Origin: Chitinophagaceae bacterium
GTDB taxonomy: Bacteria > Bacteroidota > Bacteroidia > Chitinophagales > Chitinophagaceae
Length of the DNA stretch: 23,919 nt
Assembly: GCA_003151295.1 (NCBI GenBank)
Contig: PLXD01000454.1
Location: forward strand, 1-23,919
Direction: 5' to 3'
Shown: piece after piece, positions 3,355 through 18,200 of the stretch
Layout: the number at the start of each line of letters is the position of its first letter
Numbering within the stretch: position 1 is the stretch's first letter
Made by a program: the position numbers and the translations under genes
Notes under the pieces: generated by a model
Seen by the model: only the letters and a program-made list of their open reading frames with translations
The model's database searches: none
What the model was told of the DNA's origin: nothing

Positions 3355-3434
3355 GTGGAAAATTGTTTTAAAACATATTCGTGTTGCAATGATACATTAT
3401 TGTTTTAAAAAATAATGCCTATATGTTTCAAGAT

Positions 3435-3443
3435 TTATCCACA
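3435..3443 (+). promoter_or_regulatory. DnaA-box-like sequence (TTATCCACA), module 1
   Basis: TTATCCACA matches the E. coli-type DnaA box consensus 9/9. An inverted, one-mismatch copy, TGTGGAAAA, lies at 3354-3362 and overlaps the primase start. In module 2 the corresponding pair has exactly the same 81-bp offset. This is a candidate part of a replication origin. Confidence 0.5.
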
Positions 3444-3469
3444 ATGTTTTAAACACCCCCTTTTTAAGG

Positions 3470-3477
3470 TAATTTTG
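3470..3477 (+). promoter_or_regulatory. TAnnTTTG-type -7 element for the module 1 XRE gene
   Basis: TAATTTTG matches the Bacteroidota -7 consensus TAnnTTTG. The operator-like site at 3445-3455 sits about 20 bp upstream, where a -33 element would be, so binding there should block the promoter. This is inferred from motif match only. Confidence 0.45.
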
Positions 3478-3518
3478 ATCTATTATAGGATGGTTTACAC
3501 ACCTAAATGTTTTAAAAC

Positions 3519-4327: not shown

Positions 4328-5206
4328 TCAGGGTATAAGCTCTCCTGGAATAAACTCACCTTCTGGAATAATCGGTTCCTCTGGGAAAGAGATGCCTGGC
4401 ATTTCCATTGGAACTCTCGGAACAGGCAAAGCTGTTGGAATACCAAAAGAGGAACTAGGTATCGCTTCCATAACCTCAAACTGCACACCACCTCCTGTGC
4501 CCCACGCATTTGTTCCTGCGTAACCCACTTGCATTAATGTTCCCGCCGGCACCTCAACCTCAAGTATTTCCGAAGGAGCATTCTGGCCAGGCAATGCGAA
4601 CCTTTGCTGTATCTGTTCCGGGGATAGTCCCTGTATTTCGCTCTCCTTCATCATCCATTTCCCCATAGGAGAGTTTCCATTTTTTGGATTAAACACTCGA
4701 ACAAATTTCTGCTTCATCGTCGTTCGATACTGTGTAACTGTCGTTCCTTTTGCATAGGCCGGTTCTGAATACGCCTTATTTGCTACCCCTGCAGGTATAA
4801 AACGTGCTGTTGGATTAATCTGTGGTCGAGGAACTCCTACCCCTACATTGTCTGTTGCCATTTTCGGAAGACGGTATGGTAACAGAGGCAGGCTGCTCGT
4901 AGAATTTTTATGCGGTGTTACAGTAACGGGAGGAAGGCTATCCGGCATCAACCCGAAAGGATCATTCAGTAAAATCGGGTTATTGCCCGCAAACGAGTAA
5001 GTTGATACGTCTTCATTAATATCGGCCAACGGATCTATTTGCCAAAAACGACCCAACTGTGGATCTAGGCTTCTGTAATTGGTCTCATACAGCTCTAAGC
5101 CGCTTCCATCAGAAAACTCCTTATTCTGTAGCTCCGAACCCTTGTTGAATTTATACTTATTTTCAGCGTATTTCGTCTTGAGCGCCTTATCCGATATCCC
5201 CGCCAT
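4328..5206 (-). CDS. Orphan RHS C-terminal toxin tip (5'-truncated RHS)
   Basis: This 292-residue ORF starts directly in the RHS core end. Residues 1-86 ([10 protein letters not shown] through [17 protein letters not shown] to NDPFGL) match the same segment of the full RHS protein at 15242-22033. The homology extends a few codons upstream (YYPFGLT), and then an in-frame stop (5243-5245) cuts it off. Residues 87-292 form a different tip: a Pro-rich linker, then a domain with [35 protein letters not shown] and [12 protein letters not shown]. This resembles toxin tips seen on other polymorphic toxins, possibly ADP-ribosyl- or NAD-directed, but I cannot name it reliably. It has no signal peptide or shell, so it is probably a silent cassette, with immunity gene 15 bp downstream. 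Confidence 0.82.
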
Positions 5207-5247
5207 CGTTAGCCCAAACGGATAGTAACTACCAACCCCTTTTTATA

Positions 5248-5273
5248 CCGACCGCCTTTTTGGGGGCGTTCGG
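5248..5273. repeat. Inverted repeat at the broken end of the orphan RHS cassette
   Basis: Nine-base arms CCGACCGCC (5248-5256) and GGCGTTCGG (5265-5273) pair with one mismatch around an 8-nt loop. It lies about 20 bp upstream of the point where RHS homology begins and could be a terminator relic or a junction hairpin. Confidence 0.45.
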
Positions 5274-5325
5274 ATATTTGTATATTCAAAGAGCTTCTGA
5301 GCCTCCAAGATAACCGTTTTTTCCT

Positions 5326-5358
5326 TTCAGTTGAACTTTTCAATTGAGTTCAGTTGAA
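5326..5358. repeat. Direct repeat TTCAGTTGAA x2
   Basis: TTCAGTTGAA occurs at 5326-5335 and 5349-5358, with a related TTTTCAATTG between them. The stretch lies just downstream of the first micro-cassette. No function can be assigned. Confidence 0.4.
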
Positions 5359-5360
5359 AG

Positions 5361-5385
5361 AAAAAAATCCCCTATTGAGGGGATT
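5361..5385 (-). terminator. Terminator overlapping the stop of the 63-aa gene
   Basis: On the minus strand an 8-bp perfect stem AATCCCCT/AGGGGATT (5378-5385 with 5366-5373, 4-nt loop) is followed by a T7 run. The TAG stop of the gene lies in the hairpin. The flank AAAGAAAAAAATCCCC is shared with the next cassette's terminator. Confidence 0.8.
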
Positions 5386-5563
5386 CTTCCTGATCAGGAT
5401 ATTTCACGGCATCGGGTAGTTCCCCGTACTTCATCAGGGCCTCCATAGTACTGTTGCCGGATACCAGGATCTTTCCGGCGTAGTCGGCCTGGAAGTAGAC
5501 TTCCTGATCCGGCCGGACGGTGATGATCTTTAACTCCTTTCCTTCTTTTACGATGTAAGTCAT
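5372..5563 (-). CDS. Small protein, 63 aa, micro-cassette 1
   Basis: I do not recognise this protein. The preferred start is the ATG at 5563 (MTYIVKEGKELKIITV). Longer readings from 5641 would run through a hairpin that is also present before an unrelated gene, so the upstream part is not coding. The protein is small, acidic at the C-terminus (PDQEESPQ), probably beta-rich and cytoplasmic. It is embedded between a 5' hairpin (5573-5635) and a 3' terminator that overlaps its stop. The neighbouring gene 5784-6011 has the same flanks but a different protein, so the two look like members of a cassette family. Confidence 0.6.
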   Translation of the reverse strand: MTYIVKEGKELKIITVRPDQEVYFQADYAGKILVSGNSTMEALMKYGELPDAVKYPDQEESPQ

Positions 5564-5572
5564 AACGGTGTT

Positions 5573-5635
5573 TTTAAAATGAAAAAAGTAATGCCCCTCG
5601 CAAAGCACCAGAGGGGTTACTTTTTTTATTTTAAA
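5573..5635. repeat. Long hairpin before the 63-aa gene (copy A)
   Basis: Arms 5573-5599 and 5611-5635 pair almost completely (one 2-nt insertion and a few mismatches) around the loop GCAAAGCACCA. The core stem is CCCCTC/GAGGGG, and A/T tracts on both sides make it terminator-like in both directions. A near-identical copy lies at 6023-6083. Both end 9-11 bp before a start codon within the shared text ACCGTTATGA. Confidence 0.85.
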
Positions 5636-5770
5636 GGACATGGGCAGTCCCGTAAAAGAAAAGGAGTATAGACCGATCCGGGCAGATAAGCAAGGTTGAC
5701 GGGTACAGGCGGCAGGGATAGGTCAGCAGGAGCATTTTTACGGCTCTTTTCAATGCATACCAATGGAAAG

Positions 5771-5796
5771 AAAAAAATCCCCCTTATTGGGAGGAT
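5771..5796 (-). terminator. Terminator overlapping the stop of the 75-aa gene
   Basis: On the minus strand GGAT/ATCC and CCC/GGG arms (5789-5796 with 5777-5783, one bulged base) are followed by a T7 run (5771-5777). The TAA stop of the gene is in the loop. It has the same arrangement and shared flank as the terminator at 5361-5385. Confidence 0.7.
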
Positions 5797-6011
5797 CTTT
5801 CGGTGGTTTTATAGTGCGGACAATGCCGGCCGCGAAGCATAATAGCCTGGTGTAAGGCCCGGTAATACTGTTGTAAATGGCGCTCATCCCGGGATACGGC
5901 ATAGAGCGCCTGGTAAAACCTTCTGTCAACATCGTTCCAGCGCAGGGAACTCTCGATCGTAAATCGCATACGGGGTGTTTTTTGTTTTTCTGTTGGGATG
6001 TAATCGATCAT
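5784..6011 (-). CDS. Small basic protein, 75 aa, micro-cassette 2
   Basis: I do not recognise this protein. It starts at ATG 6011 (MIDYIPTEKQKTPRMRF). It is rich in Arg, His and aromatic residues and likely helical (DRRFYQALYAVSRDERHL, YYRALHQAIMLRGRHC), which would suit a nucleic-acid-binding or regulatory protein, but no motif decides this. Like the 63-aa gene it sits behind the conserved hairpin (6023-6083), ends in a terminator and is transcribed leftwards. Its sequence is unrelated to the 63-aa protein although the flanking DNA is shared. Confidence 0.55.
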   Translation of the reverse strand: MIDYIPTEKQKTPRMRFTIESSLRWNDVDRRFYQALYAVSRDERHLQQYYRALHQAIMLRGRHCPHYKTTERSSQ

Positions 6012-6022
6012 AACGGTTGGTT

Positions 6023-6083
6023 TTAAAATGAAAAAAGTAATGCCCCTCGCAAAGCACCGGAGGGGTTACTTTTTTCATTTTAA
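6023..6083. repeat. Long hairpin before the 75-aa gene (copy B)
   Basis: Arms 6023-6048 and 6060-6083 are exact complements apart from a TG insertion, around the loop GCAAAGCACCG. It is the second copy of the hairpin at 5573-5635 and lies 11 bp before the start at 6011. The near-perfect arms show the pairing is conserved, because base changes between copies occur on only one arm at weak positions. Confidence 0.85.
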
Positions 6084-6197
6084 CCGGATGGTCGGCTGAC
6101 AAAAACAAGGAGAAAGCGGTCCGGTTATACGGGAGAGATACCGGCGTTTCGATAACTGGCAGCAGCGCTGCCGATCAATAATCCTACCAGGTCAGGA

Positions 6198-6219
6198 TAC
6201 TTTTGTACATACAAAAGTA
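6198..6219. promoter_or_regulatory. Perfect palindrome containing TAnnTTTG on both strands
   Basis: TACTTTTGTA (6198-6207) and TACAAAAGTA (6210-6219) form a perfect 10-bp inverted repeat with a 2-bp spacer. TACTTTTG fits the Bacteroidota -7 consensus on each strand. On the minus strand it lies about 190 bp upstream of the 75-aa gene and could drive the two micro-cassettes, or be an operator. A convincing -33 element was not found. Confidence 0.5.
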
Positions 6220-6284
6220 CATCCTGCAATGGTTCAGATTAATATTTGCTCCAGATCTTCGATATGGATGCAACTAAGGATGGC

Positions 6285-6366
6285 TGTGGAAAAAGGGGGC
6301 TGTTCCGGCAATAATTGGGCAATAATTGTGAACGGCTGTGTAAAATTGTGTAATCCTGTGTAAAAA
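6285..6366. repeat. Iteron-like cluster: four tandem TGTG decamers and GGCAATAATTG x2
   Basis: The 11-mer GGCAATAATTG is tandemly duplicated (6307-6317, 6318-6328). It is followed by four contiguous 10-bp units beginning TGTG at 6327, 6337, 6347 and 6357 (TGTGAACGGC, TGTGTAAAAT, TGTGTAATCC, TGTGTAAAAA). A related TGTGGAAAAA is at 6285. The 10-bp period puts the units on one DNA face. This could be a protein-binding array or one of the degenerate intergenic repeats found in Bacteroidota. Confidence 0.65.
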
Positions 6367-6516
6367 TAAGGTTCGCACCCTTCCTTGCCCTCCGGGGAGA
6401 CGGGGCAACCTGGCCCTCAAGCATTTTAAGGCGTTTTACGGGGCTGCCGGCAAGGATGGAGGGAAGGGCTTCCCGGATCGGGTTAGCCGCTTTTTGGCCG
6501 GTTTATTTGCTGACAA

Positions 6517-6598
6517 CTATATATCTTGCTGTGTGCACCAGGCACACTCCCTGACCTGCCTTTAAAGCCATTTTTGTGCACAGCTATACATCTTGCTG
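6517..6598. repeat. Direct repeat CTATAYATCTTGCTG x2 with a small inverted repeat
   Basis: CTATATATCTTGCTG (6517-6531) and CTATACATCTTGCTG (6584-6598) differ by one base. Between them is GTGTGC-ACCAG-GCACAC (6531-6547), and the second copy is preceded by TGTGCACA. This gene-free stretch is otherwise unassigned; a mobilisation or recombination site is possible but unproven. Confidence 0.5.
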
Positions 6599-6625
6599 CT
6601 TCCTGCCGGAAGCTCTTGGGGGATA

Positions 6626-6898
6626 CTATTTAGCAGCTTGCGGACAGGTGAGGATTCCGCATGCCTTCTTTACTTCCTGGAACAGGAACGTATGCAGGGG
6701 TACGGTAGCATTCCTAAAGCCATCTTCTGCATATAAGCGGAGTAGAAGGTCGTCAACGACCTTGTTAGCCCGTTTGCTGTCCTCTAAAAGGATATAGGCC
6801 AGAATGGTCATATCCTCGGCATAGTCATAGCAAAGGGCCTTAAATGCCTTTATATTGCGTTGCTGTAGTTGATAGATTATTTCGGGGTCCTGGTTCAT
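6626..6898 (-). CDS. Sigma-70 region 2-like small protein (90 aa)
   Basis: From ATG 6898 (MNQDPEIIYQLQQRN) the 90-residue product resembles region 2 of ECF-type sigma factors. The pattern is AFKALCYDYAEDMTILAYI, then LEDSKRANKVVDDLLLRLY, then PLHTFLFQEVKKAC. There is no room for region 4, so it is either a truncated sigma factor or a minimal regulator or decoy that keeps the RNA-polymerase-binding part. A longer start at 6952 would include a GC hairpin and is rejected. The hairpin 6917-6948 followed by a T6 run lies directly upstream of the start. Family assignment is by pattern only. Confidence 0.55.
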   Translation of the reverse strand: MNQDPEIIYQLQQRNIKAFKALCYDYAEDMTILAYILLEDSKRANKVVDDLLLRLYAEDGFRNATVPLHTFLFQEVKKACGILTCPQAAK

Positions 6899-6916
6899 GT
6901 AGAGATGGTTAAAAAA

Positions 6917-6948
6917 GCGCCCCCGGTCCTTTCCAAAGAGGGGGGCGC
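6917..6948 (-). terminator. Strong GC hairpin with T-run directly before the 90-aa gene
   Basis: GCGCCCCC (6917-6924) pairs with GGGGGCGC (6941-6948), and CTTT/AAAG extends the stem near the loop. On the minus strand it is followed by TTTTTT and then, 12 bp later, the ATG at 6898. It would stop transcripts entering the gene unless relieved, so it may be an attenuator or simply the end of an upstream unit. Confidence 0.65.
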
Positions 6949-7133
6949 ACAATTAAGAAAATATCTCAGCCGGGAGTAGACACAAGCGACCGGCTACGTC
7001 AGTGCCTTATTAACCATTTAAACCTTATCCTATGAAAAAATTTATCCTGTGACAGCGCTAATATACGAAAAATCCGACAACAGTATGGATTCAGTCCTAC
7101 TAAATTTCTGTTCGGTTTGGTGATCTTTCGCCG

Positions 7134-7361
7134 ATGAACCGGAACCGGGATGCAAAAATAATTAACGATTTTGGCAAAAATTTGAAAACTATTCGGAAGG
7201 CAAAAAAATTGAGCATCCGGAAGCTGGCCGATATCGCCGATGTGGACTTCAGCCAGGTACACCGGATCGAGAAAGGAGAAAGCAACCCCACCCTCACAAC
7301 GATTATGGTATTGGCGGAGGCCCTACAGATAGATCCCTGCATCCTGCTTTCAAAGAAGTAG
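7134..7361 (+). CDS. Small XRE-family HTH protein (75 aa)
   Basis: This is a single HTH_XRE domain with little else: DFGKNLKTIRKAKKLSIRKL, ADVDFSQVHRIEKGESNPTL, then TTIMVLAEALQIDPCILLSKK. At 75 residues it is a typical minimal XRE regulator. It is not closely related to the two module regulators and lacks their C-terminal tail. The start at ATG 7134 gives the full first helix. It stands alone on the plus strand, with an 18-bp inverted repeat about 40 bp after its stop. Its target is unknown. Confidence 0.85.
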   Translation: MNRNRDAKIINDFGKNLKTIRKAKKLSIRKLADIADVDFSQVHRIEKGESNPTLTTIMVLAEALQIDPCILLSKK

Positions 7362-7397
7362 TCAACAGCAGCCAGGAAGTAAAGCATCATCATATCG

Positions 7398-7470
7398 GCC
7401 CGGAGGTATAAAAAGCCTGTTCTACCGCTGACCTGGTTACTACCGCCGCCGTGCTTTTATACCTGCGGGC
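7398..7470. repeat. Inverted repeat with about 18-bp arms, 36-nt spacer
   Basis: The arm at 7398-7416 (GCCCGGAGGTATAAAAAGC) pairs with 7453-7470 (GCTTTTATACCTGCGGGC) apart from one mismatch and one extra A. It lies downstream of the XRE gene. The long spacer makes a simple terminator less likely; a recombination hairpin or element end is possible. Confidence 0.55.
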
Positions 7471-7535
7471 TGATACGCCAACGGCGAACGGATGCCCGGA
7501 TTTATTCTACTGCTCATCGCCGGCGGCTGCTTGTT

Positions 7536-7715
7536 CTACGGCTTGTTTTCGAGACTGCCGATTTCATCAGCATAGACAGCGCAGGTCTTAGGGTCTTTCA
7601 AGCTGGGGTATTCTTCCTGGACAGCTTCCACTTCTTTTTCTGTCATCGGGCGGCTCTTTCCATTATCATCGTTATGGATCGCCCAGCAGTCGGCGTACTT
7701 TTTTACGTAATACAT
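7536..7715 (-). CDS. Small acidic protein, 59 aa
   Basis: This short frame runs from ATG 7715 to TAG at 7536-7538, beginning MYYVKKYADCWAIHNDDNGK and ending ADEIGSLENKP. The composition is protein-like (TEKEVEAVQEEYPSL looks helical) and the frame carries no rare-codon oddities. I do not recognise a family; it resembles the many small uncharacterised proteins of Bacteroidota accessory regions. The CDS is the best explanation for this stretch, but transcription is not shown by the sequence. Confidence 0.5.
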   Translation of the reverse strand: MYYVKKYADCWAIHNDDNGKSRPMTEKEVEAVQEEYPSLKDPKTCAVYADEIGSLENKP

Positions 7716-7739
7716 AGCTGTATATTTTAATGGTTATAA

Positions 7740-8150
7740 AAGGCTTTGCATTTGTGGCAGTGCAGCTTTCGGGAGAGAGGTACGAACGGACGAGAGCGAA
7801 GCGCCCGCCACCACCGCCATGTGGCCGGCAGTGCTGCACGGAAGAAGGCCGCAGGCCGCCGGGCAGCTACCCGCCGGATCGACCGCTGTGTTCCGCCGGA
7901 GCTTTAGCGGAGGCAAATAAAACCGATAAGCTGCTGGCCACCGGCAGGTGGCGGACAAACAAGAGGCAGCGGGTGGATGCGAAGCAGACACGGAAGCTGC
8001 CCGAACGGAGACGGGGTGAGCTGCAAGGGGCGTGACAGGTAGGCGGGCTACCGCCCGCCAGGCTACGCCGTTACCTGGCGCCCCACTTGCCGAACCCTGA
8101 CGGAGAGAGACCTATCTTCCTGCTTGGGGCGTAGGACTTGTACGGTGGGG
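7740..8150. other. GC-rich, hairpin-rich stretch without a convincing gene
   Basis: About 400 bp with much higher GC than the flanks. ORFs here have low-complexity Arg/Pro-rich translations and are unconvincing. The right part can fold: GGCGGGC/GCCCGCC (8042-8048 with 8053-8059), GCCAGG/CCTGGC (8057-8062 with 8074-8079, an alternative to the first stem) and CGCCCCA/TGGGGCG (8079-8085 with 8125-8131). It could be a structured RNA, a transfer-origin relic or decayed mobile DNA. Confidence 0.4.
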
Positions 8151-8693
8151 TTAGTCTTTTTCGTTCGATCTGCGGAAGCCTATCCGGGGCCGGGGCTCCT
8201 GCGGTGGGTTCAGTAGTTGTTTGAGGTATTTAAAAACGAGCTGTATGTCTTCATCATGCCCGGTTACTTTCCTTTCCATTTGTTCCAGCTTCAACAGTAT
8301 CTCCTGGTTGGTCATTAGCATCTCCCGCATCTGCGTGAAGATCCTTACTATCTGGATATTAACCTCAATGGCTCTATCACTATTCAACACACTGGCTAAC
8401 ATGACAGCTCCGTATTCTGTAAAAACATAGGGTAAAACAGGCGAGTATTTCAGGGATTCGAGGTGGTCGCATTTTGCGACCACCTCCTCTTTTTCTTCTG
8501 CCGTCAACTGGAACATAAAATCTTCCGGGAACCTTTTTGTATTGCGTTTTACCTGCTCGTTCAGTCTTTTGGTAGGTACTCCGTACAACGCTGCCAGGTC
8601 TCTGTCTATCATTACTTTCTTACCCCGGATGAGTAGTATTTTGCGCATCACTATTTCATCAGGTACGATCAGTTCATTTTTTTCCTTTGCCAT
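8151..8693 (-). CDS. ORF6N-domain DNA-binding protein
   Basis: This 180-residue protein has an N-terminal ORF6N domain: MRKILLIRGKKVMIDRDLAA, LYGVPTKRLNEQVKRNTKRF, PEDFMFQLTAEEKEEVV, then LPYVFTEYGAVMLASVLNSD. A predicted helical/coiled-coil C-terminus follows (MREMLMTNQEILLKLEQMERK). ORF6N is a DNA-binding domain of phages and mobile elements, often fused to KilA-type tails. Its start lies 37 bp after the stop of recombinase B on the same strand, so it may be co-transcribed as cargo of module 2, but it can also be independent. A perfect 27-bp palindrome lies within the coding sequence (8460-8486). Confidence 0.88.
   Translation of the reverse strand: MAKEKNELIVPDEIVMRKILLIRGKKVMIDRDLAALYGVPTKRLNEQVKRNTKRFPEDFMFQLTAEEKEEVVAKCDHLESLKYSPVLPYVFTEYGAVMLASVLNSDRAIEVNIQIVRIFTQMREMLMTNQEILLKLEQMERKVTGHDEDIQLVFKYLKQLLNPPQEPRPRIGFRRSNEKD
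8460..8486. repeat. Perfect 12+3+12 palindrome inside the ORF6N gene
   Basis: Arms GAGGTGGTCGCA (8460-8471) and TGCGACCACCTC (8475-8486) are exact complements around TTT. It encodes EVVAKCDHL of the ORF6N protein. Confidence 0.85.
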
Positions 8694-8730
8694 AAGATTG
8701 GGTTTAAGAGGTTACAAATTTATTTTTTAT

Positions 8731-9588
8731 TTAGCTCATCGGGTGATGTTTTTGCAGTTCGTTTTGCCAGTCATCGCCATTTAATACCTGGTAACGCTCG
8801 GTGCTGCTTACATACCGGTGTCCTGCCATATACTGCACCTGCCGCAGGTTGTACTGCTGCAACCAACCCGTGATCACGCTGCTGCGGATCTGGTTCGCGT
8901 TAATGACCTTCGGATTAAGCTGCTGCAACTGGCCCATCATGTGTTTGATCCGGTTGTTTACATTTCGTTTGCTGGCATCGGCCCGCGTCAGCCTGGCTAA
9001 AAAGATCCCTTCTTTGAACTTGTTGGCTTGCATGTACTGCTGCAGTTCCAGCGCCTGGTTAGCCTGCATGGGCAACCACCGCTCATTGCTTTTACGCGCC
9101 CCTTTGATAAAGATTTTCCCTTCCCGTAAATTAACGTGCGCCGCTTCCAGGTTCATTACCTCGTCCGTCCGCAGGCCCTGGTAGACCAGCAGCCCTAACA
9201 TGATCTTCTTTTCGCGGTCGACCCGCAACTGTAACTGGTACCAGCGGTAAAGATCCTCCATGTCCTCCCTGCTTAACAGGTTGCCCGGCAGCTTCCGTAC
9301 AATGCCTTTTACGTACAACCCAGCAGCCGGATTATCTTGCCGCTTACCTTCCAGGGTGAGGTAATTAAAATAATGCCGCAGGATGTTCAACTGATTATGT
9401 ACGGTCCGGTTACTTTTTCCTTTGGCCTTCATGTGCTGCATAAAAGCGATCACGTCATTGTAGCCCACCTCTCCGCCGTCCAGTTGCTCCTGGTTCAGCC
9501 AGTCCGTAAACACGACTCCGTATAGCTTGTAACGATGGATCGTGACAGCACTGTAACGTTTTTCCTGCAGGTACTGCTCAAAGTTCAT
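8731..9588 (-). CDS. Tyrosine recombinase B, module 2
   Basis: This is a 285-residue site-specific recombinase. The N-terminal SAM-like domain covers about 1-90 (YSAVTIHRYKLYGVVFTDWL). Catalytic-domain residues visible are Arg140 (YQGLRTDEV), Lys166 (GARKSNER), Arg235, His257 (VQYMAGHRYVSSTERYQ) and the nucleophile Tyr266. The usual HxxRH is NQIRSS (232-237), so the first His is Asn and the second is Ser; this variant is typical of a Bacteroidota subfamily rather than a clear inactivation. It overlaps recombinase A by 11 bp, so the pair is translationally coupled and probably acts as a heteromeric recombinase, by analogy with XerC/XerD. It is divergent from recombinase A. Confidence 0.92.
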   Translation of the reverse strand: MNFEQYLQEKRYSAVTIHRYKLYGVVFTDWLNQEQLDGGEVGYNDVIAFMQHMKAKGKSNRTVHNQLNILRHYFNYLTLEGKRQDNPAAGLYVKGIVRKLPGNLLSREDMEDLYRWYQLQLRVDREKKIMLGLLVYQGLRTDEVMNLEAAHVNLREGKIFIKGARKSNERWLPMQANQALELQQYMQANKFKEGIFLARLTRADASKRNVNNRIKHMMGQLQQLNPKVINANQIRSSVITGWLQQYNLRQVQYMAGHRYVSSTERYQVLNGDDWQNELQKHHPMS

Positions 9589-10498
9589 GGCTTTGTTGTT
9601 TAGGGATTTCGTTGATAAGATGCGTATAGAGCTGCGTGCTGTCCAGGGCAGTATGCCCTAAAAAATCCTTGATCCGTTCCAGGGTCATGCCGCTTTGCAG
9701 CAGGTGCGTAGCGATGCTGTGCCGCAGGCTGTGCGTCCCTACCTCCTTTTGGATGCCGGCCTTTCGTACCAGGCCCTTGATCCGGATATACAGGCTTTGC
9801 TTGGTGATCGGCCGGCCTTTGTTGGCATCGATAAAAAGGGCCTTGCAAGGCTTTTGCAGTAACTGCGGACGAGCTTGTTCGATATACACCTGGATGTCGG
9901 CATAACTCTTTGCTGCCACCGGCACATAGCGTTCCCGGTACATCTTTCCTTTGCGCACATACAGCATTCTCCGGTCAGCCAGTATGTCGCTGAGTTCCAG
10001 GCTGGCCCCTTCATTTAACCGTAGCCCGCAGCCGTAAAACACCGATAGCATGGCCCGGTCACGCACCCCTAATACATCATCTTTCGTGGCTCCGTACAGC
10101 CGGCGGATCTCGGGTCTCGTTAACCAGGTAGGCTTGCCCCTGATATCCGCCAATCGTTCAAGGGTGAAGCCGACGCTGCTCTTCCCACTCTGCCGGATAT
10201 AGCGGCTAAAAAGATGCAGGGCCTGTATGTACTTGTTGATATGGCCGGCACTAAACCCCTGCCGGGTCCTTACGCCCGTTTTTATTTGTAGTTGTCTGGT
10301 AAAGGCCGTCGCGTCAGTGGCCGTAAGCTGCTGCAAGCTGTACTTTCCGCGGGCCTCCTGGTCTGCCAAGAACTCCTGCACATGCCGCGGCAGGCTTACT
10401 ACGCTCGTACCGGCATAGCCCAAGACTGCCAACCACTCCGCAAAGCCTTGCCGGAGTAGTTTGTGTTCGTCACTGGTGATGGGATATAATATTTTCAT
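9578..10498 (-). CDS. Tyrosine recombinase A, module 2
   Basis: This is a complete 306-residue tyrosine recombinase. It has an N-terminal core-binding region (to about 115), then WLTRPEIRRLYGATKDD and a full catalytic set: Arg160 (GCGLRLNEG), Lys185 (RKGKMYRER), HSLRH at 256-260, GH at 281-282 and Tyr291 (STQLYTHL). All six catalytic positions are present, so it should be active. The start ATG 10498 corresponds to the start of the module 1 copy at 583. It lies downstream of the primase-like gene across a 121-bp repeat-containing gap and overlaps recombinase B by 11 bp. Confidence 0.95.
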   Translation of the reverse strand: MKILYPITSDEHKLLRQGFAEWLAVLGYAGTSVVSLPRHVQEFLADQEARGKYSLQQLTATDATAFTRQLQIKTGVRTRQGFSAGHINKYIQALHLFSRYIRQSGKSSVGFTLERLADIRGKPTWLTRPEIRRLYGATKDDVLGVRDRAMLSVFYGCGLRLNEGASLELSDILADRRMLYVRKGKMYRERYVPVAAKSYADIQVYIEQARPQLLQKPCKALFIDANKGRPITKQSLYIRIKGLVRKAGIQKEVGTHSLRHSIATHLLQSGMTLERIKDFLGHTALDSTQLYTHLINEIPKQQSHEL

Positions 10499-10530
10499 GG
10501 CAAATGATTTTTGCTAATGGTCTTTTTCGG

Positions 10531-10617
10531 TGTCGTAGTTGTCGCAGTAGGGTAAATCCGCTCGGGTATTGTGTTTTACTGCGACAGTAGGTCACTGTCG
10601 CAGTAGTGTCGCAGTAG
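10531..10617. repeat. Short direct/inverted repeats between primase and recombinase A, module 2
   Basis: GTCGCAGTAG occurs at 10541-10550, 10597-10606 and 10608-10617; the last two are 11 bp apart, one helical turn. The inverted TACTGCGAC is at 10577-10585, and a degenerate copy TGTCGTAGT is at 10531-10539. This is the same position as the GTGGTCCAC repeats of module 1 but an unrelated word. Candidate iterons or recombinase binding sites. Confidence 0.75.
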
Positions 10618-10619
10618 AT

Positions 10620-13268
10620 TCATAACCCCCGGAGCTGGGTCAGGATGGCTTGCAGGTGTTCATCTATGCCGCTTCTGAGCTGCGCGTATTCGCCCAGGTC
10701 GGTGATGCCATACTCAAAGCCCTTTCGGTGCCTGTAGCCGCTAACGGGCTTTATATACCCGTATCCGTATAACTCCCGGATGTATCGCTGTAGGGTGCGG
10801 GGCTGGAGTCTAAGCAGCTTGCGGATCTGCTGCGGACTAAAGCTACCCTGGCCACTCTGTTGCAGGTGCTGCTTTAACTGCTCCAAAAAATGCCGGGTGG
10901 CCTGGGTCAGCTCGTCGCTTTTGTGGAACAAGGCGTCTCCCAGCAAGGCAAAGGCTGCCTGGATATCGTCCACGGTGGTTTCCACATAAGGGTTGCCCTG
11001 AGGATCCCTTTTAACCGGTCGTTGGTATTGATGGTAAAACGTGATCGTTTCGATAAAGGCCAGTAGCAGCGTCATCGTCCGGCGCGGCTTAAACACCTGC
11101 TCCGGAAGGTTGAGGTATTTCGCATAGGGATTGATCACCTGTACTGCTGTCAGCACCCGCTGGATATGCTGGAACTGACGGCGGGTATGGTTTTCGGCTT
11201 CCCGGTCGATCTCGCCCCCGGCCAGCCGGGTCTGATACTCGATCACCCGCTTGTCCTGGTCCTTCCCCGTATCGATGTATAACAGCAAACATCGGTTGGC
11301 GTTATCCTCATATACTTTCTCTCGCGTGGTGCATCCGCTCACACTCACCGGGCCTTCTACGGTTAAAGTAATTGTTTTCAGATTGCCCTTGCTGTCTTTC
11401 AAGGTCACGGTCTTACTGATCCGGCGTTTGCTTTGCAACTCCCGCAGCGGATACATCGACGATTCGGCGCCGTCCAGGTCCTCTATTAAAAGCAGCTTGT
11501 TTTTCAGCTCGTCCTGCCTAAAGTAATAGAACGCATTTTCGGTGATCTGCGTGATCTCGATCTTATCTTCGGCCGGGATCAGCTCACTCACCTTCTCCTG
11601 CAACCAGGTCTTGCCGCTGCCTGAACTGCCCAGGAACATGAGGTGTAAAGGGACAGCCAGTTTCCGGCTGCTGTACACCAGGTAGGCGATCAGCCTGTTG
11701 GTCTCTTCTCCGACCAGGCCAGACCGTCCTATGTCTTCACCCGTTCGAGCTAACAGGTTTGCTTGTTTCAGGTAGTTGATAGCCGACTGCCGCTGCGCCG
11801 GACTAAGTATGGGCTTCTCTTCTGCTCTTGGTTGTAAAGATTCAATGCGTTTAACCCGGTAGCCCTCCAGTTCGTTCGTAAGAGCCGCTATCGTATGGGT
11901 CGTCGCTTGGGTGCTGATCTCGAAGCTCTCCGCGATCTTGTTCACCAACTGCTCGGTGTGTGGTTGATTATACAAGTCCAGGTTATGACGTACCGGCAAT
12001 ACCTGTTTTGCTTTGTGCTCTACTTTCAGCGTCACCCGCATCCGGTCCAGGCCCGTGATCTTGATACCCCCCAGCACCGTGATCAGCAGCTCGCAGTTGT
12101 CATAGATCAGCAGCTCCGGGTTGGTCGTGATCAGTTTGTTATCTGTCGGCTGTTTGGCAGGCGTGTAGGGGATTTCAGGAGAGGGCGGTCTTTCTTTTTC
12201 AATTGAAATAAAAAAATCCTTTCGCACTCCGATCACGCCCTCCAGGATCCGCGGGTCGTCATGGGTTTGCAACAGGCTGTTTACATCTTCGCCGGCCGGT
12301 ACCGCAACCTTTGTGAACTTTATGGCCGGCAGCAGCTCCTTTAACGTGCGGTAATGCTTGGCCGTGGCGGCTTCCCCCGCTTCATCCCCGTTCAGCATGA
12401 AGATGATCTCTTCCAGGTGCTTGAGTGCCAGGATCGCATGTTGGTGCTCATCGGTCAGCCCGTTCGTTCCATACAGAGCAAGCACTTCATGCTGTATTGT
12501 AATGGAAGGCTGTTGCAGCAGCGATACCGCGTCGATAATGCTCTCCACCAGAATCAGCCGGGTCGTGGCCGCTTTCGGATAACCCGGATACAACCCTTCC
12601 CGGCCGTTCAAATAAAAATGCCGTTGGTCGCTGTTGTTGGTAATGCTCCTGCCGTATAGACTAACGATCTTATGTTCACTATTTCGCAGCGGGAAGATCA
12701 CGCAGTCCCTGGCCCATACGCTGTATCCCCTGGCCGGCAAGGGTTTCAGCAGGCCCCACTTTTCCATGCTATGCACCAGGTGGTGGTTCTTACTCTCCCC
12801 ATGCAGCCCGCCGCTGTTGTAACCGGTCTCGTGCAGTGTGTAATCAATACACCGGCTTTGCAGGTACTCAACCGCCTTCCGGGTCTGCGGCAAGGATTTT
12901 TTAAAATAACCGAACACCTTGCCCAGCACGGCTTCTTTTTCCAGTGTCTCCGCTTCGATGAAGAGCTTAGCCGGGGCAGGTTTCGCGGGAAGCGAAGGAT
13001 TAGCACTGACCAGGGAGGCCGCTTTTACAAGCGCTTCATGCTTGCTGCATTTTTCCATCCGTTCGATAAACTGGATCTGATCACCCGTGCCGGCCGTGCA
13101 GTTACTGCTGAAGCAGCAATACGTATTTGTCTTGGGATAGACCTGCAGGCTCGGCGTGGTGTCCGGGTGGAAGGGGCAGCACAGCCGGTCGTGCTTGTCC
13201 GGTTTCAGGCCGTAGTGCTGCAAAACGGTCTCGATGGATAACAGGGCCTTGATCTCTTTTATCTCCAT
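10620..13268 (-). CDS. CHC2-TOPRIM-P-loop primase/helicase-like protein, module 2
   Basis: This 882-residue paralogue of the protein at 709-3354 has the same start context. It has a CHC2 zinc finger (CPFH, then CCFSSNC), a TOPRIM domain with the same LNGDEAG variant, Walker A GSSGSGKT, Walker B LLLIEDLDG and an SGCTT sensor-like motif. A block of 162 residues around the ATPase (511-672 in the paralogue's numbering) is identical in the two proteins, although the DNA differs at many third positions. The C-terminal winged-helix-like part (PQQIRKLLRLQPRTLQRYI) is only about half identical. It heads the operon for recombinases A and B. Likely role: initiation of replication of the element, by DNA unwinding and possibly priming. 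Confidence 0.88.
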   Translation of the reverse strand: MEIKEIKALLSIETVLQHYGLKPDKHDRLCCPFHPDTTPSLQVYPKTNTYCCFSSNCTAGTGDQIQFIERMEKCSKHEALVKAASLVSANPSLPAKPAPAKLFIEAETLEKEAVLGKVFGYFKKSLPQTRKAVEYLQSRCIDYTLHETGYNSGGLHGESKNHHLVHSMEKWGLLKPLPARGYSVWARDCVIFPLRNSEHKIVSLYGRSITNNSDQRHFYLNGREGLYPGYPKAATTRLILVESIIDAVSLLQQPSITIQHEVLALYGTNGLTDEHQHAILALKHLEEIIFMLNGDEAGEAATAKHYRTLKELLPAIKFTKVAVPAGEDVNSLLQTHDDPRILEGVIGVRKDFFISIEKERPPSPEIPYTPAKQPTDNKLITTNPELLIYDNCELLITVLGGIKITGLDRMRVTLKVEHKAKQVLPVRHNLDLYNQPHTEQLVNKIAESFEISTQATTHTIAALTNELEGYRVKRIESLQPRAEEKPILSPAQRQSAINYLKQANLLARTGEDIGRSGLVGEETNRLIAYLVYSSRKLAVPLHLMFLGSSGSGKTWLQEKVSELIPAEDKIEITQITENAFYYFRQDELKNKLLLIEDLDGAESSMYPLRELQSKRRISKTVTLKDSKGNLKTITLTVEGPVSVSGCTTREKVYEDNANRCLLLYIDTGKDQDKRVIEYQTRLAGGEIDREAENHTRRQFQHIQRVLTAVQVINPYAKYLNLPEQVFKPRRTMTLLLAFIETITFYHQYQRPVKRDPQGNPYVETTVDDIQAAFALLGDALFHKSDELTQATRHFLEQLKQHLQQSGQGSFSPQQIRKLLRLQPRTLQRYIRELYGYGYIKPVSGYRHRKGFEYGITDLGEYAQLRSGIDEHLQAILTQLRGL

Positions 13269-13276
13269 GTGGATAA
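13268..13276 (-). promoter_or_regulatory. DnaA-box-like sequence at the primase start, module 2
   Basis: TTATCCACA on the minus strand, 9/9 to the consensus, overlaps the primase ATG. A second box, ATATCCACA (8/9), is on the plus strand at 13349-13357, 81 bp away as in module 1. Confidence 0.5.
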
Positions 13277-13284
13277 TTTTTTAA

Positions 13285-13431
13285 TGATACCTCAAAGTAT
13301 TGCAATAATACCTATGATTTGTATCATATCCAAACGGAAGGTCTTAAAATATCCACATTGCGTATCAAAATGCTTTTCAAAAGCCCTATCTATAGGTTAT
13401 ATTTGTGTGGAAAAAATATTTCAACGTATCA
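13285..13431. promoter_or_regulatory. Four operator-like GTATCA sites, XRE-primase intergenic region, module 2
   Basis: TGATAC is at 13285-13290; GTATCA is at 13321-13326 (inside TATGAT-ttgt-ATCATA, 13313-13328), 13362-13367 and 13426-13431. The last overlaps the XRE ATG at 13431. Spacing from the primase start closely matches that of the TGTTTTAAAACA sites in module 1 for three of the four, but the word is different. These are likely binding sites of the module 2 XRE protein. Confidence 0.62.
13398..13405 (+). promoter_or_regulatory. TAnnTTTG-type -7 element for the module 2 XRE gene
   Basis: TATATTTG matches the Bacteroidota -7 consensus and lies 26 bp before the XRE start at 13431, leaving a very short leader. 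It sits between two GTATCA sites. Motif match only. Confidence 0.5.
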
Positions 13432-13781
13432 TGAACACCGTAGGAGAACGTATTAAAAAAAGCCGCACCCAGGCCGCAATGACCCAAAGCGATTTAGCCG
13501 CAAAGGTGGGGATTTCTTATGTGCAGATTGGCAGGTATGAAAAACGCGGAGCTGTGCCTTCTTCGGATGTGCTGGCTAAACTGGCCGATGCCCTTGGTAC
13601 TACCACTGATTTTTTAATGCACGGCTCCCTCCAGGATAAAGCCTCCTCTCAGATAAATGATAACGAACTGTTGAGCCTGTTTCGCTCCGTGGAGAAGATG
13701 AACAATGAAGATAAATCCGTTATCAAAACGGTTATTGACGCCCTGGTTACCAAACGGCAATTGCAACAACTGGCGCAGTAA
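13431..13781 (+). CDS. XRE-family repressor-like regulator, module 2
   Basis: The start at ATG 13431 gives 116 residues (MNTVGERIKKSRTQAAMTQS) and matches the module 1 regulator from its first residues. A longer in-frame extension to 13269 reads through the operator region and is not believed. The HTH_XRE domain covers about 4-63 (SDLAAKVGISYVQIGRYEKR); the tail ends VTKRQLQQLAQ as in the paralogue. It diverges from the primase operon and converges with the MNT-HEPN gene (25-bp gap). The recognition regions of the two XRE proteins differ at several positions, in line with their different operator words. Probable repressor of module 2. Confidence 0.9.
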   Translation: MNTVGERIKKSRTQAAMTQSDLAAKVGISYVQIGRYEKRGAVPSSDVLAKLADALGTTTDFLMHGSLQDKASSQINDNELLSLFRSVEKMNNEDKSVIKTVIDALVTKRQLQQLAQ

Positions 13782-13806
13782 AAACGAGCCCTGTAGACCG
13801 GTCCCT

Positions 13807-14667
13807 TTATTCCAACATATTGAACGATGCAATTTTTTCTTTGCAGATCCGCTCTGCGATCGCCTGTAGCTTTCTTACCCGCTCGATCAGGCGCGTAAGC
13901 TCGTCCGTTGTAATTACATAATCATCTTTATACCGGGCGTCAATATAGCCTTTCAGTAAAAGGTCGAACAGGTGGGCCTCCAACTCGCTGTTGCGCGGGA
14001 ATACCCCGGCCAACTCTACGGAGTAGCGTTTCGTATAACGGATCAGCTTGTCCAGGTTATGCGTCTTGGGCTTATAGCCCGTAAATACCAGGATGATCGC
14101 ATGGTAGGTACGCTCGGCCGCCTGGTGCAATACAAACGCAGATTCTTTCAGGGTGCCGTTTTGTTTGGCATAGACGCTCATTCCCAAAAAGTTAACGGCG
14201 CTGATAAACCACTTATCATAATCCGCCTGCGCCAGGGCCTTTGCCTCCGAAGGGTTGAGCTGCCGCCGCTCGGCCAGCGGCACGTTGCCGGCATCATACA
14301 GCATAATGCCCTCCTTCTCGATATCGCTAAAAAAATACTGCCCTTCGCTGAGGTGCTTGTTGATGTACCCGATGTTATGAGTGATCGCGTTTACCGGCGT
14401 CTTATACCGGCAACGGTTCTCTATGATGTCCTGGATCTCGTAGTCCTTTCGCTTCTCATCCGCCTTTGTGATCACCAGCAGGTCGTAGTCGCTCACATAC
14501 TCATACGTGATATGACCCTCCGTAAACCGGTCCTCTACCCAACGGCCCGTAGCATGGCTGCCGAACAAGATCACCTTCTCCGGGTCCACCGCACCCACGA
14601 TGATCTCCGTGATCTCTTTAAGCTGCGCTTGCTTATGCTCCGGTAAATGTTCGAGGGAAGTCTTCAC
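13807..14667 (-). CDS. Nucleotidyltransferase-HEPN fusion protein
   Basis: I prefer the GTG at 14667, which gives the start MKTSLEHLPEHKQAQ usual for this family (286 residues); an ATG at 14733 would add 22 residues. The N-terminus is a minimal nucleotidyltransferase with GSHATGR (36-42) and SDYDLLVI (59-66). The C-terminus is a HEPN domain with ESAFVLHQAAERTYHAI and KPKTHNLDKLIRY. Separate MNT and HEPN genes form known toxin-antitoxin systems in which the MNT modifies the HEPN RNase. In a fused protein of this type the activity is less clear. It lies directly downstream of the RHS immunity candidate and convergent to the module 2 regulator; module 1 has no counterpart. A defence or regulatory role is possible. 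Confidence 0.85.
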   Translation of the reverse strand: MKTSLEHLPEHKQAQLKEITEIIVGAVDPEKVILFGSHATGRWVEDRFTEGHITYEYVSDYDLLVITKADEKRKDYEIQDIIENRCRYKTPVNAITHNIGYINKHLSEGQYFFSDIEKEGIMLYDAGNVPLAERRQLNPSEAKALAQADYDKWFISAVNFLGMSVYAKQNGTLKESAFVLHQAAERTYHAIILVFTGYKPKTHNLDKLIRYTKRYSVELAGVFPRNSELEAHLFDLLLKGYIDARYKDDYVITTDELTRLIERVRKLQAIAERICKEKIASFNMLE

Positions 14668-14738
14668 AGCTAACAGTTTGCTATACTGTAAAGCTAGGGA
14701 AGTTTCAATAACCAAAAATAAAAAACCAGACAATGGCT

Positions 14739-15224
14739 CTAAACCTTTGAGGCATTAATTATATCACAAAAATACTCTTTTATAAAAGTTCCATAGTTAT
14801 AAAACTGATCGTATCGACTGGCGATATCAATCTTAATATTTTCAATCTCATTATCTTTTAACCTTAACACTTTTCTTAAGGCCCACTTAAATAAACTATT
14901 TTTCGGATTGCTCCGATATGCCTTATCGAGCAGTCTGACTCCATCTTCTTCCTTAAGTAAAGGGGCAAAATACCAGAAAGCTACCGTTAGCATCCATCCA
15001 ATAATAAAATTGTAGTCCGCATCATTGGTATAGGTATTCTGATAAGTTTCAACATTTCTCATTAGTATATCCTTTATGTCGCTCTCGGAGAAATTTTCAC
15101 AGGAGACTCCTTCGACTAATATATACCATGTTAGAAAGATTTCTATTATCAGCAATTCCTTATCGAGCCTCTTTTGCAAGAGCTTTGCTTCTATATTAAT
15201 AACCATGTCGTTAAAATCATCCAT
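14739..15224 (-). CDS. Candidate immunity protein for the full RHS toxin
   Basis: A 161-residue, strongly helical and acidic protein without a signal peptide that I do not recognise (EAKLLQKRLDKELLIIEIF, FIIGWMLTVAFWYFAPLLKE, RLLDKAYRSNPKNSLFKWAL). It starts 17 bp after the stop of the RHS gene, a spacing almost equal to the 15 bp in the orphan pair. Its AT-rich base composition is unlike the neighbouring primase genes and typical of exchangeable toxin/immunity cassettes. The immunity assignment rests on position; sequence and size fit other helical immunity proteins. Confidence 0.65.
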   Translation of the reverse strand: MDDFNDMVINIEAKLLQKRLDKELLIIEIFLTWYILVEGVSCENFSESDIKDILMRNVETYQNTYTNDADYNFIIGWMLTVAFWYFAPLLKEEDGVRLLDKAYRSNPKNSLFKWALRKVLRLKDNEIENIKIDIASRYDQFYNYGTFIKEYFCDIINASKV

Positions 15225-15241
15225 TACTTCTGTTATAAATT

Positions 15242-18200
15242 TTAGGGGATAAAAGCTGTGCCTATCCGAGGAACTCCGTTAACCACAGCCCCTCTAATTG
15301 TTACGTCATATCCATAAATACTAACCACTTTTTCAAAAACACCTGAAGCAGGCAAACTGCCGGTTTGCCCTAAAGACAAATACAAGCGTCTGATAATATT
15401 TGCTTCACTACCTGCCTTTGATAATAATAATCCAAGATTGTGTTTTGAGGCTAAGATATGAGATATGCTATTTGTATTAGCGAAAGTTGAAGCAATCCCT
15501 TGTCTCACTTCTGCCAAACCAATATCTGCTGTTACATTTACTATAGTCGATGATAATCGTCCAACAGGAATACTCGCCGCCAAATTTACCATCGCTTGGC
15601 CGGTATTCTGTTTAACATCATAAGAATCATGTCCAGTAACCCATGTATCTACAAGATTATATGCCTGTGCTAACGGATTGAACCTGTTTAACTCATAAAC
15701 AATATCAGTTCCAATATTATGATCACCTTGATCTTGACTAGCTGTATTATCCTTTGAATTTGAGGAACCACCTTGTATAGGCGCTGCTATTGTTGACGGC
15801 GGGGGGTCAACAGTTACTGTAGGTGCAGAAGCACCGCAGTTGCTTTTGCACGGAAGGGCTGCTGTTACAACAGCATCTGGCATTGGGGTAACCCCTGAAT
15901 CATGCGTACTATCATTGGCTAAACCCAACGGATCATTTAATAAAATGGGATTGTCATTAGCAAACGAATACGGACTATACCCTTCATTTAAATCGGCTAA
16001 AGGATCGGTTTGCCAGAACCTTCCAAGTTGCGGATCGTAACTGCGACAATCTGTTTCGTAGAGTTCTAAACCGGATCCATCGCTAAACTCTTTATTAGCT
16101 AGCTCTGTACCGTCATTGTACCTGTACTTATTTTCAGCGTAATTCGTCTTCAATGCCTTATCACTAATGCCGGCCATGGTGAGGCCGAACGGATAATAAT
16201 GCGTCTCTTCTAATAACGGCCCACGTTTGTCTTGTATTGTGACATTATCAAAGAACACATCCTGCGCACTCTCGTTGCTGACATATATATAAAGATACCC
16301 ATTTTTCGGAATGGTGGTAGGGAGATTTGCGGCCATCGCTTGTTTCTGCGCCGGACTGACAATGGTAGGGACTTGAGTCACTCCTCCTGTTACATAATTC
16401 ATTCGATCATCAAAAAGCGCCCAGTTCAAAAACGCTTTAGGGGAAGTGGGAGCGTAATCTGCATCCTTTGCACTTAAGAATGTTGGTAAGGAGGCTGCAA
16501 AGGCCGCATTAACACCCGTTTGTTCAGCCGGTATCAATTCGCCGCCACTTAGCCCGATAGCGCTCGTCGCCAGCATAGGCAACAAGCTATTGAGCAGGCT
16601 GGGTGGACTTGTTGGAACCTGCAAGGGCGCATTGTACCAGCCGTATGTACTGGCTGTCACGGTATCCCCTGCCATGACCTTTAAGATAATGGCTGGCCCT
16701 ACCCGTTTGTTGATACTGCTACTGGCGTTTAAGCGTGATACATAATGGTTGCTGGTATCGGTATCAAAGCCCGTTGGTTTGGCGAATTGGGTGCTACTTA
16801 CGCTATCAAATAAGGCATTTTCAACGGTCGCATTCGCCTGCTCCATCGTGGCGGCATAGGTATCCTGCTGGGTCTCTTCGGAGAGCACCATTCGTGTATT
16901 GCCTAGATGATCTTTTATAAAGTAATCGTATACATATTGGAGATTGGAAGGGGTATAACCGGTTGCGGGCGTATCAAGCTTTACCCGGATGCGGCCTTCT
17001 TCATCCCCGATAAATTGTAAGGTATCGTTGTGGTAAACATAGGCACCCGTATAGGTAGTGGTAGTCGTTTTTACAGGCGTAGCCGTGCTGTCCAAGGTGA
17101 TCTTTTTCCACTTGGTACCCGTAGCATCATAGAGATAGTTGACCGTACCCTTTCCTCTGATCGAGATCGTCTGCGGTAGGTTCAGGATATTATAGCTGAT
17201 ATTGCTAATGTTCTTGTTGCTATCTACCACCAGGTTTCCGTTGCCATCGTAGGCATAGTCATTGCCGGTATTCGTGCCGTCTTTAAAATCTCCCAAGGGA
17301 GCCGTATTACCGCTGTTATCGGTGACGCTGGCAAGTCTGTTGCTCCACCCCCCGGCCTGCAAGTAGCCGTATTGCAGATGGTCGATGACGGCCGAACTGG
17401 TTAGGACAATCCCTTTTTGCTGCATCTTCAGTATATTGCCATTGGCATCATACTGAAGACTATCTACATTGAAATCGATATTAGCGTCTTTCACATAACC
17501 GCTACCCTCGTTTTGAGTAAAATCCCCTTTTACTAAACGATTTGCATTGTCGTATGCATAGCCGTAGGCCCGCGCTACCGGATCACCCTTGCTGATCCAT
17601 GAAACACCTGCGATGTTGCCATTTAACTGGGTGAGGTTATAGCCATAGTCATAGCCGATATCCTCTCCAAACCAATTAGACGTGCTGCCGCCACTCACAT
17701 AGTTTCGATTGATTCCTTTGAGCCATCCTCGAATGGTGTAATTATAGGTTAGGGTTTCCACCGGTTTGGCACCGAGTGCTTTGGTCGATAATCTACCCAG
17801 TTTGTCATAGGTGATCGTGTTGATGGTTTCAGCGGTTGTGGACCCATTCAGGTATTGTTTGGTACTTAACGGTCGCCCCTGCGCATCATAATTGATTGCA
17901 GAAACAAGCATATTCCATTTGATGGGACCGACCGTAGAAACAAGGCTATGAGTGGCGCAGGAACTCAAAACCTTACCACTAAAATCATATTGTGTCGTGA
18001 GCGTGTCCCATCCGGCAGAAATATTTTGTACCTGTACTTGAGTCAACCGGTTGTAATCGTCATAGAAACTGGCGTTATTTAAATACTGGTTGTTGTTCAA
18101 TATTTTGACCCGTTTGCCCGTCGCTACGCCTCGGGTATGTAACGTTACTGCGGGGGTGATTGCATAGGCTCCACTCAGAATGACCGGCAAGTCGGTACTG

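Follow-up and report, generated by a model that had tools for sequence, protein, structure and literature searches.

A duplicated primase–recombinase module behind RHS toxin genes: candidate engine of an integrative element that exchanges toxin tips

The duplicated module and its RHS flanks

The DNA analysed here, hereafter the window, is a 23,919-nucleotide stretch of a Chitinophagaceae bacterium (GCA_003151295.1, contig PLXD01000454.1). The assembly is fragmented (4.35 Mb in 669 contigs, 65.7% complete); the window is one of its contigs, with the left edge of the window at the contig end. It carries twice a module in which a forward-strand gene for an XRE regulator diverges from a reverse-strand gene for a CHC2-TOPRIM-ATPase protein, which is followed on the reverse strand by the gene for tyrosine recombinase A and, in copy 2, by that for tyrosine recombinase B. 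Copy 1 occupies positions 1–3866 and copy 2 positions 9916–13781. The two are homologous at a constant offset of 9914–9915 bp, the primases sharing 84% protein identity (83% DNA identity over 2407 bp), the recombinase A genes 75% DNA identity over 597 bp and the XRE proteins 56% identity over 115 codons. The offset and these identities bear out the original prediction, made from the letters of the window, of a duplication in the same order and on the same strand about 9.9 kb apart. In copy 1, XRE lies at 3519–3866 (+) and the primase-helicase at 709–3354 (−). The predicted position of recombinase B of copy 1 beyond the left edge agrees with the gene order; what the prediction had missed is that recombinase A of this copy (2–583, −) is itself cut by the contig edge, 194 residues being left of an open reading frame (ORF) that runs off it.

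Each module lies directly behind the C-terminal tip of an RHS polymorphic toxin. The intact gene (15242–22033, −; 2263 residues; DUF6443, PF20041) contains a match to the NCBIfam model Rhs_assc_core (TIGR03696) at residues 1946–2038, and this match starts at the first residue of the left candidate attachment site, TATTATCCGTTCGG (16185–16198, −; codons YYPFG, residue 1946 onward), the codon position at which the displaced tips of many related loci also start. The RHS core-end is present a second time in the window, at a spacing of 10,971 bp (repeat family D3) that encloses module 2 and everything from the RHS tip to the displaced tip. Its second copy opens at the right candidate site, TACTATCCGTTTGG (5214–5227, −), where the displaced core-end and C-terminal tip begin (4328–5206, −; 292 residues from the first ATG; TIGR03696). 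Displaced and intact core-ends share 71% DNA identity over 280 bp and 77% protein identity over 105 residues. A small ORF stands directly behind each tip, one of 161 residues behind the current tip (14739–15224, −) and one of 120 residues behind the displaced tip (3950–4312, −); both are putative immunity genes by position, and neither has a family match. Neither the displaced tip nor the complete RHS protein contains a toxin domain recognised by any of the libraries searched. Among 147 genomes of the family, the displaced tip matches its own genome only, and the current tip matches one further genome, weakly.

The best reading of these flanks is that the part of the rhs gene from 16198 to 15242 is the tip brought by the element. 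The span 8731–13781, originally given as the element, would then be the engine alone, the whole unit extending from about 5228 to 16198. The notion that replication and integration genes are the sole content likewise finds no support: the genes on either side encode an RHS toxin and a displaced RHS tip, small putative immunity genes accompany them, and the point of insertion falls within the toxin coding sequence.

The engine of copy 2 comprises the XRE regulator (13431–13781, +; HTH_3), whose start is most likely the ATG at 13431, and not the GTG at 13269, judging from copy 1; a CHC2-TOPRIM (DnaG-type) primase fused to an MCM-like helicase with a winged helix (10620–13268, −); recombinase A (9578–10498, −; PF00589); and its presumed partner, recombinase B (8731–9588, −; PF00589). 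The catalytic residues of recombinase A are present, R160, K185, H256, R259, H282 and Y291 being invariant among 17 sequences. The helicase part of the primase-helicase folds like MCM, so that a DnaG-type primase is here joined to an MCM-helicase-like fold in what looks like a mobile bacterial element.

Related modules, junctions and empty sites

A scan of one genome per species yielded 62 loci with relatives of the primase, chosen by the primase and not by RHS. Nearly all are titled Bacteroidota, the exceptions being Peptococcaceae, Spirochaeta and Syntrophomonadaceae bins and one Chlorobiota bin. A search of 61 of these loci, the window and a longer stretch of the contig of locus L035, in place of that locus, gave 69 modules with a primase match of at least 900 bp. 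The co-occurrence of the gene set in Bacteroidota genomes, proposed at the outset as a check, was found. The counts that follow use only modules with enough sequence, the upstream RHS test requiring at least 3 kb upstream, and several modules are neighbours or near-copies and hence not independent events. A divergent XRE gene is present in 54 of 62 testable modules and a recombinase directly downstream in 56 of 59. All 36 testable modules have an RHS core on the same strand no more than 6 kb upstream, and a core-end with the displaced tip lies downstream within 4 kb in 28 of 32; none of the surveyed modules has RHS on the opposite strand. Since the eight genomes searched contain 2–22 RHS core-ends each, such proximity is estimated to arise by chance in 1–2% of cases. 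Within the genus of the window, strong primase matches occur in 4 of 32 other genomes (G007, G012, G030, G031), partial ones among them, and G002 and G015 add short fragments; the element is thus patchy.

Site classes were assigned by eye from translated starts for 31 modules, L046 and L069 being dropped for want of a clear displaced tip. The displaced tip starts at YYPFG or a degenerate form of it in 23 modules (TATTATCCGTTTGG or close), at WYDYGAR(FYD) in 4 and at other, uncertain motifs in 4; in the modules read, the sequence ahead of this start is generally not RHS. When site class is laid on the recombinase A tree, 4 class changes are needed, compared with a mean of 7.7 after shuffling and with none of 200 shuffles as low. 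The site used thus appears to follow the recombinase tree; this is a correlation, and the recombinase is the presumed catalyst of the event.

Occupied and empty versions of one site were found in Escherichia coli. Of 5,426 complete E. coli genomes, 53 carry the recombinase known from a small circular Shigella record of 8,758 bp, and 44 contain 80% or more of that circle. In strains SCU-113 and EC10 the unit sits behind an rhs gene that follows vgrG, between ansP and pptA, and SCU-111 and KW21 show part of the same neighbourhood. A search for the displaced tip of SCU-113 found at least 80% of it in 50 genomes, among them Ec-U14-2; two others from this search (KW21, and IH5, which is below 80%) and one array elsewhere were also examined. 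In Ec-U14-2 the ansP–pptA locus has no element and the tip is fused to the rhs gene, while in KW21 the same tip and its neighbour gene (WP_023155668.1) are displaced. The two strains are 99.2% identical over 8,294 bp of left flank and 99.8% identical, gapless, over 15,023 bp of right flank, and the occupied one has an additional 7,789 bp placed precisely at a 15-bp repeat, both breakpoints falling at GACCCGATAGGGCTG, the codons DPIGL. Directly ahead of the site, 60 bases agree completely at the left junction and to 13% at the right; past the 15-bp core of the right site, the next 1,000 bases are identical. In Ec-U14-2 (empty) and EC10 (occupied) the rhs genes are both open, and their proteins share 99.6% identity over 1,407 residues and diverge after DPIGL. 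The comparison of occupied and empty sites that had been suggested for mapping the ends thus succeeded for one E. coli pair, which differs by the element at a short direct repeat as a site-specific integrative element should, and gave no empty site for the Chitinophagaceae elements; the window itself offers two diverged sites. No second empty site was seen among 6 genomes with at least 80% of the SCU-111 displaced tip.

This family was also considered as the general source of E. coli orphan tips and was rejected in that role: a 151-bp element end occurs in 55 of the 5,426 genomes, hardly above the recombinase itself. In one orphan array (L121) the annotation lists ISAs1 genes and neither a primase nor a recombinase. 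Most E. coli orphan tips are without trace of the family, which cannot be shown to be their maker. An ISEc1 (ISAs1 family) transposase adjoins displaced tips in L115 and L117, both from E. coli.

Several replicons carry units in tandem. Chitinophaga barathri has two of 7,486 bp, 99.84% identical over 7,513 bp, the identity beginning at the site in the intact rhs gene and extending about 26 bp past the third site. Tandem units are 99.6% identical over 7,918 bp on an Aureispira plasmid, 99.96% over 4,738 bp on an Aureibacter plasmid and 100% over 4,480 bp on an Enterobacter plasmid, the last two runs reaching the end of the stretch examined. In these three the repeats start inside the toxin gene, of CdiA type in Enterobacter, at a motif, which in Enterobacter is formed by the VENN codons. 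In Hufsiella (L097) the backbones of two units are 99.88% identical over 5,796 bp and the tip stretches show no such match. More generally, neighbouring units in L097 and in L058 (Aureispira) have backbones 98.5–99.9% identical and tip regions without such a match, and later homologous exchange between units has probably occurred there. The two small circular records, deposited as NZ_CP055112.1 and NZ_CP072857.1, consist of such units, one of 8,758 bp (Shigella), which also holds ISEc1 and a further rhs core piece, and one of 11,289 bp. No terminal exact overlap was found in 22 short loci; both ends of L045 and of L064 fall inside the site motif, a pattern compatible with a repeat junction or with a circle and proof of neither, and L084 has a 126-bp word common to both ends that is part of its second module.

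The engine also stands behind genes other than rhs. A translated search matched 59 plasmid records, in 19 of which the match spans 80% or more of the primase; many of the weaker matches are ordinary DnaG. Gene neighbourhoods were read in 11 annotated records (2 Bacteroidota, the rest Pseudomonadota and Leptospira) and 1 unannotated one. The Pseudomonadota units read have a single recombinase, annotated xerC, in place of the pair. The gene ahead of the unit is annotated as a filamentous hemagglutinin in Paraburkholderia, a hemagglutinin repeat protein in Enterobacter, TpsA2 in Pseudomonas aeruginosa and an FG-GAP protein in Janthinobacterium; in Providencia an invasin-domain protein lies farther upstream. 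In Leptospira plasmids, primase and recombinase each match 13 records, and no toxin gene was recognised in the two engine neighbourhoods read (L122, L123).

A proposed integrative element with its site inside toxin genes, and the competing explanations

Comparison of gene order, of junctions at fixed motifs, of one occupied and empty pair, of the in-frame swap, and of tandem copies that start at the site suggests that the duplicated module very probably serves the replication and integration of an integrative element that has its attachment site within polymorphic toxin genes and, on insertion, swaps the tip and displaces the old one. That part of the original prediction which saw an integrating element equipped with recombinases, a primase-helicase and a repressor of its own has fared well, as the gene set recurs in many genomes and E. 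coli relatives provide an occupied and an empty site. The unit would run from one site through the rest of the rhs core and a toxin tip, a small putative immunity gene, optional accessory genes, XRE, the DnaG-MCM primase-helicase, one or two tyrosine recombinases, an optional ORF6N anti-repressor and an end sequence to the other site. Recombination between the two sites, presumably by the encoded recombinases, would excise a circle in which the end sequence is joined to the unit's own core-end, and the primase-helicase would copy this circle, with XRE and ORF6N as likely controls. Integration at matching codons of an rhs, cdiA or similar gene, perhaps after movement between cells, would fuse the new tip in frame to the delivery gene already in place, whose previous tip, along with the gene next to it, would be pushed behind the element and remain there as an orphan. 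Repeated integration, or duplication between sites, would build arrays. With the old tip kept beside its putative immunity gene, the cell could stay protected from kin that use the old toxin, and excision could restore the old tip.

A wider hypothesis, which I hold to be only slightly more probable than its negation, is that these are widespread autonomous elements that replicate as circles and constitute a dedicated natural route of tip exchange. Their sites would be the conserved junction codons of unrelated delivery proteins (RHS, CdiA/filamentous hemagglutinin and others), each integration would re-arm the cell with a new toxin while keeping the old immunity, arrays would be time-ordered records with the newest unit nearest the gene, and the engine would be common to Bacteroidota, Pseudomonadota and perhaps spirochaetes.

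Several observations weigh against the proposed element. In an alignment of 16 sequences of recombinase B, the Tyr is kept, but neither the first Arg nor the His of the HxxR box is conserved. Four of the 32 testable modules have no downstream RHS match (L039, L060, L091, L092), and in L049 the match to the downstream tip sets in only some 20 residues past the site. The two sites of the window share the core TATCCGTT and differ at 2 of 14 positions, so that this insertion is old. Site class C taken alone clusters no better than in 82 of 500 shuffles, near-copies inflate the clustering, and the classes were assigned by eye. The evidence from occupied and empty sites comes from one pair of E. coli strains, and none of the Chitinophagaceae elements has yielded an empty site. 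In that pair the KW21 rhs gene is annotated as frameshifted and the insert holds two tips, so that it may represent two events; in IH5, primase and xerC lie behind an rhs gene of a different locus, where the annotation shows no displaced tip. The E. coli elements are moreover distant from that of the window (27–33% identity for the primase, in Lonsdalea and Shigella plasmid records, and 29% for the recombinase), and tandem repeats could have been misassembled into the circles of 8.8 and 11.3 kb.

How Rhs and contact-dependent inhibition (CDI) tips exchange, and how displaced tips arise, has been an open question since at least 2009. In the model of Jackson et al. (2009; PMC2935791), homologous recombination was proposed and circular intermediates were predicted. 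Under such a model tips would be exchanged between rhs cores through those circles, the primase and recombinase genes being passengers of the arrays. The core-ends behind the site are indeed alike between tips (for instance 70% over 60 bases in the E. coli pair, and the 71% noted above for the window), and the near-identical backbones bearing different tips make it probable that homologous exchange acts as well. As the sole explanation it is nonetheless unlikely: the sites in L115, L116, L117 and L119 are the same 14 bases with one variable position, the sequence ahead of the right site in the occupied and empty pair is unrelated to rhs, site class follows the recombinase tree, and RHS stands upstream on the same strand in every testable module. 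Still less credit is due to a fixed, non-mobile chromosomal rhs array with duplicated accessory genes; it draws on the drifted junctions of the window and on there being one known assembly, and I give it next to no weight, in view of the patchy spread in the genus, the empty site in E. coli and the near-identical tandem copies. For E. coli it is already contradicted.

A phage satellite or plasmid-like element with a mere preference for the vicinity of RHS genes, to which the toxin would not belong, would account for the resemblance of XRE, primase-helicase, integrase and anti-repressor to satellite logic, and P4 was the comparison originally offered. P4-like satellites share a repressor, a primase-helicase and an integrase with the present unit; they differ from it in that here no phage structural or packaging family was found, primase and helicase form a DnaG-MCM fusion, and the target is a toxin gene. 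PHROGs detected no structural or packaging family in 10 proteins, and Pfam no phage packaging or helper-exploiting gene in 20 window ORFs. Three stretches of viral_contigs matched a pattern and none encodes a relative, in a scan that finds close relatives only; 54 phage records match the primase, none over 80% of its length, and coverage among the 20 listed is at most 41%, in the DnaG part. A phage origin was rejected on the last two results. As the insertion point is within the toxin coding sequence and the tip inside the unit, the satellite explanation is very improbable, and P4 does not hold as the closest comparison.

Among other known systems, the integrative element proposed here comes near to those that insert in a gene and supply its 3′ end: both have a tyrosine recombinase and a direct repeat, and the target gene is open after insertion. 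Here, however, the new 3′ end encodes a different toxin, so that insertion changes function instead of restoring it. Integrons and shufflons likewise exchange cassettes through a recombinase, but each unit here has its own recombinases and primase-helicase, and the integron integrase model scored 104.4 bits on recombinase A against a cut-off of 265. Recombinase in trio (RIT) elements consist of three consecutive tyrosine recombinases, whereas there are two in the window and one in the proteobacterial units read. No relaxase or transfer gene, as expected of an integrative and conjugative or a mobilizable element, was recognised by Pfam among the 20 ORFs, and the window has no tRNA, so that a tRNA integration site was discarded.

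The window does have the layout of an Rhs orphan-tip locus, with an intact delivery gene followed by core-end and tip fragments with small ORFs. Earlier work describes such Rhs and CDI arrays, in which a full-length toxin gene is followed by C-terminally displaced tips with small ORFs (PMC2935791; PMC3150448); in contrast to what is described there, recombinases and a replication protein are here part of the unit. Poole et al. (2011; PMC3150448) called the mechanisms of tip exchange unknown and demarcated tips by DPxGL and VENN, the latter motif being that of CdiA tips, displaced cdiA tips are described in Proteus (PMC11278526), and XerC/D genes adjoin some polyimmunity loci (Zhang et al. 2012; PMC3482391). 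The rAID arrays of Bacteroidales, immunity-gene arrays with a recombinase (PMC12247911), also place a tyrosine recombinase beside polymorphic-toxin immunity genes in Bacteroidota; they differ from the present unit with its tip, its primase-helicase and its site inside a toxin gene, and the gene order of the window is not that of a recombinase followed by co-oriented immunity genes without toxins. Full-text searching of an open-access collection brought up no paper that describes such an element in its title or in the opening of its abstract, subscription journals being mostly outside that scope. If it is as proposed, the element offers a mechanism for tip swapping, with an integrase, a replication protein and a defined site. 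Since these come together with sequenced empty and occupied E. coli strains, the question becomes a bench experiment.

Further features of the unit

Between recombinase B and the right site lie an ORF6N gene and a gene-poor end. The ORF6N protein (8151–8693, −; PF10543) is anti-repressor-like (phrog_4792 anti-repressor, 1.5e-25) and also matches the PADLOC candidate defence family PDC-S05 (1.7e-65); an ORF6N gene stands behind recombinase B in several other loci. The right end (5228–8150, −) is mostly without recognised genes, and the 155 bp of it that border the site share 79% identity with the corresponding stretch of L049. It includes an 89-residue ORF (5372–5641, −) with homologues ahead of the displaced tip in L033, L100, L101 and L102, and two copies of a terminator-like 66-nt hairpin (5569–5634 and 6018–6083; 95% identical; about −27 and −29 kcal/mol). 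An XRE remnant at about 7173–7387 (+), 37% identical to the XRE protein of copy 1, may be what is left of an earlier unit that decayed. A promoter and terminator scan of 4900–8800 gave counts near the shuffled mean (8 versus 5.4 and 9 versus 5.2), and an RNA-element reading was rejected, Rfam having no match at E up to 0.5.

Next to the current tip, a nucleotidyltransferase-HEPN protein (13807–14733, −; PF05168 above and PF18765 below cut-off) forms putative accessory cargo, with a 69% identical homologue at the same place in L049. Toxin-antitoxin-like accessory genes of this kind recur in units (also L110, L114, L115, L124) and include SymE in Lonsdalea and E. coli, a VbhA-family antitoxin in Pseudomonas and Janthinobacterium, and RelE/ParE in several units. 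The replication protein has a variant, in L064–L066, L069–L072 and similar loci, that matches only from about residue 375, without the CHC2-TOPRIM part; most of these have the same neighbours. Finally, a word similar to TTCTTTGA, which resembles a boxA antitermination signal, occurs in the gap from recombinase to displaced tip in 20 of 31 modules (for example L066, L040 and L082), 6.9 being expected from its overall frequency, and in 15 of these 20 gaps it lies within 150 bp ahead of the matched start of the displaced tip.

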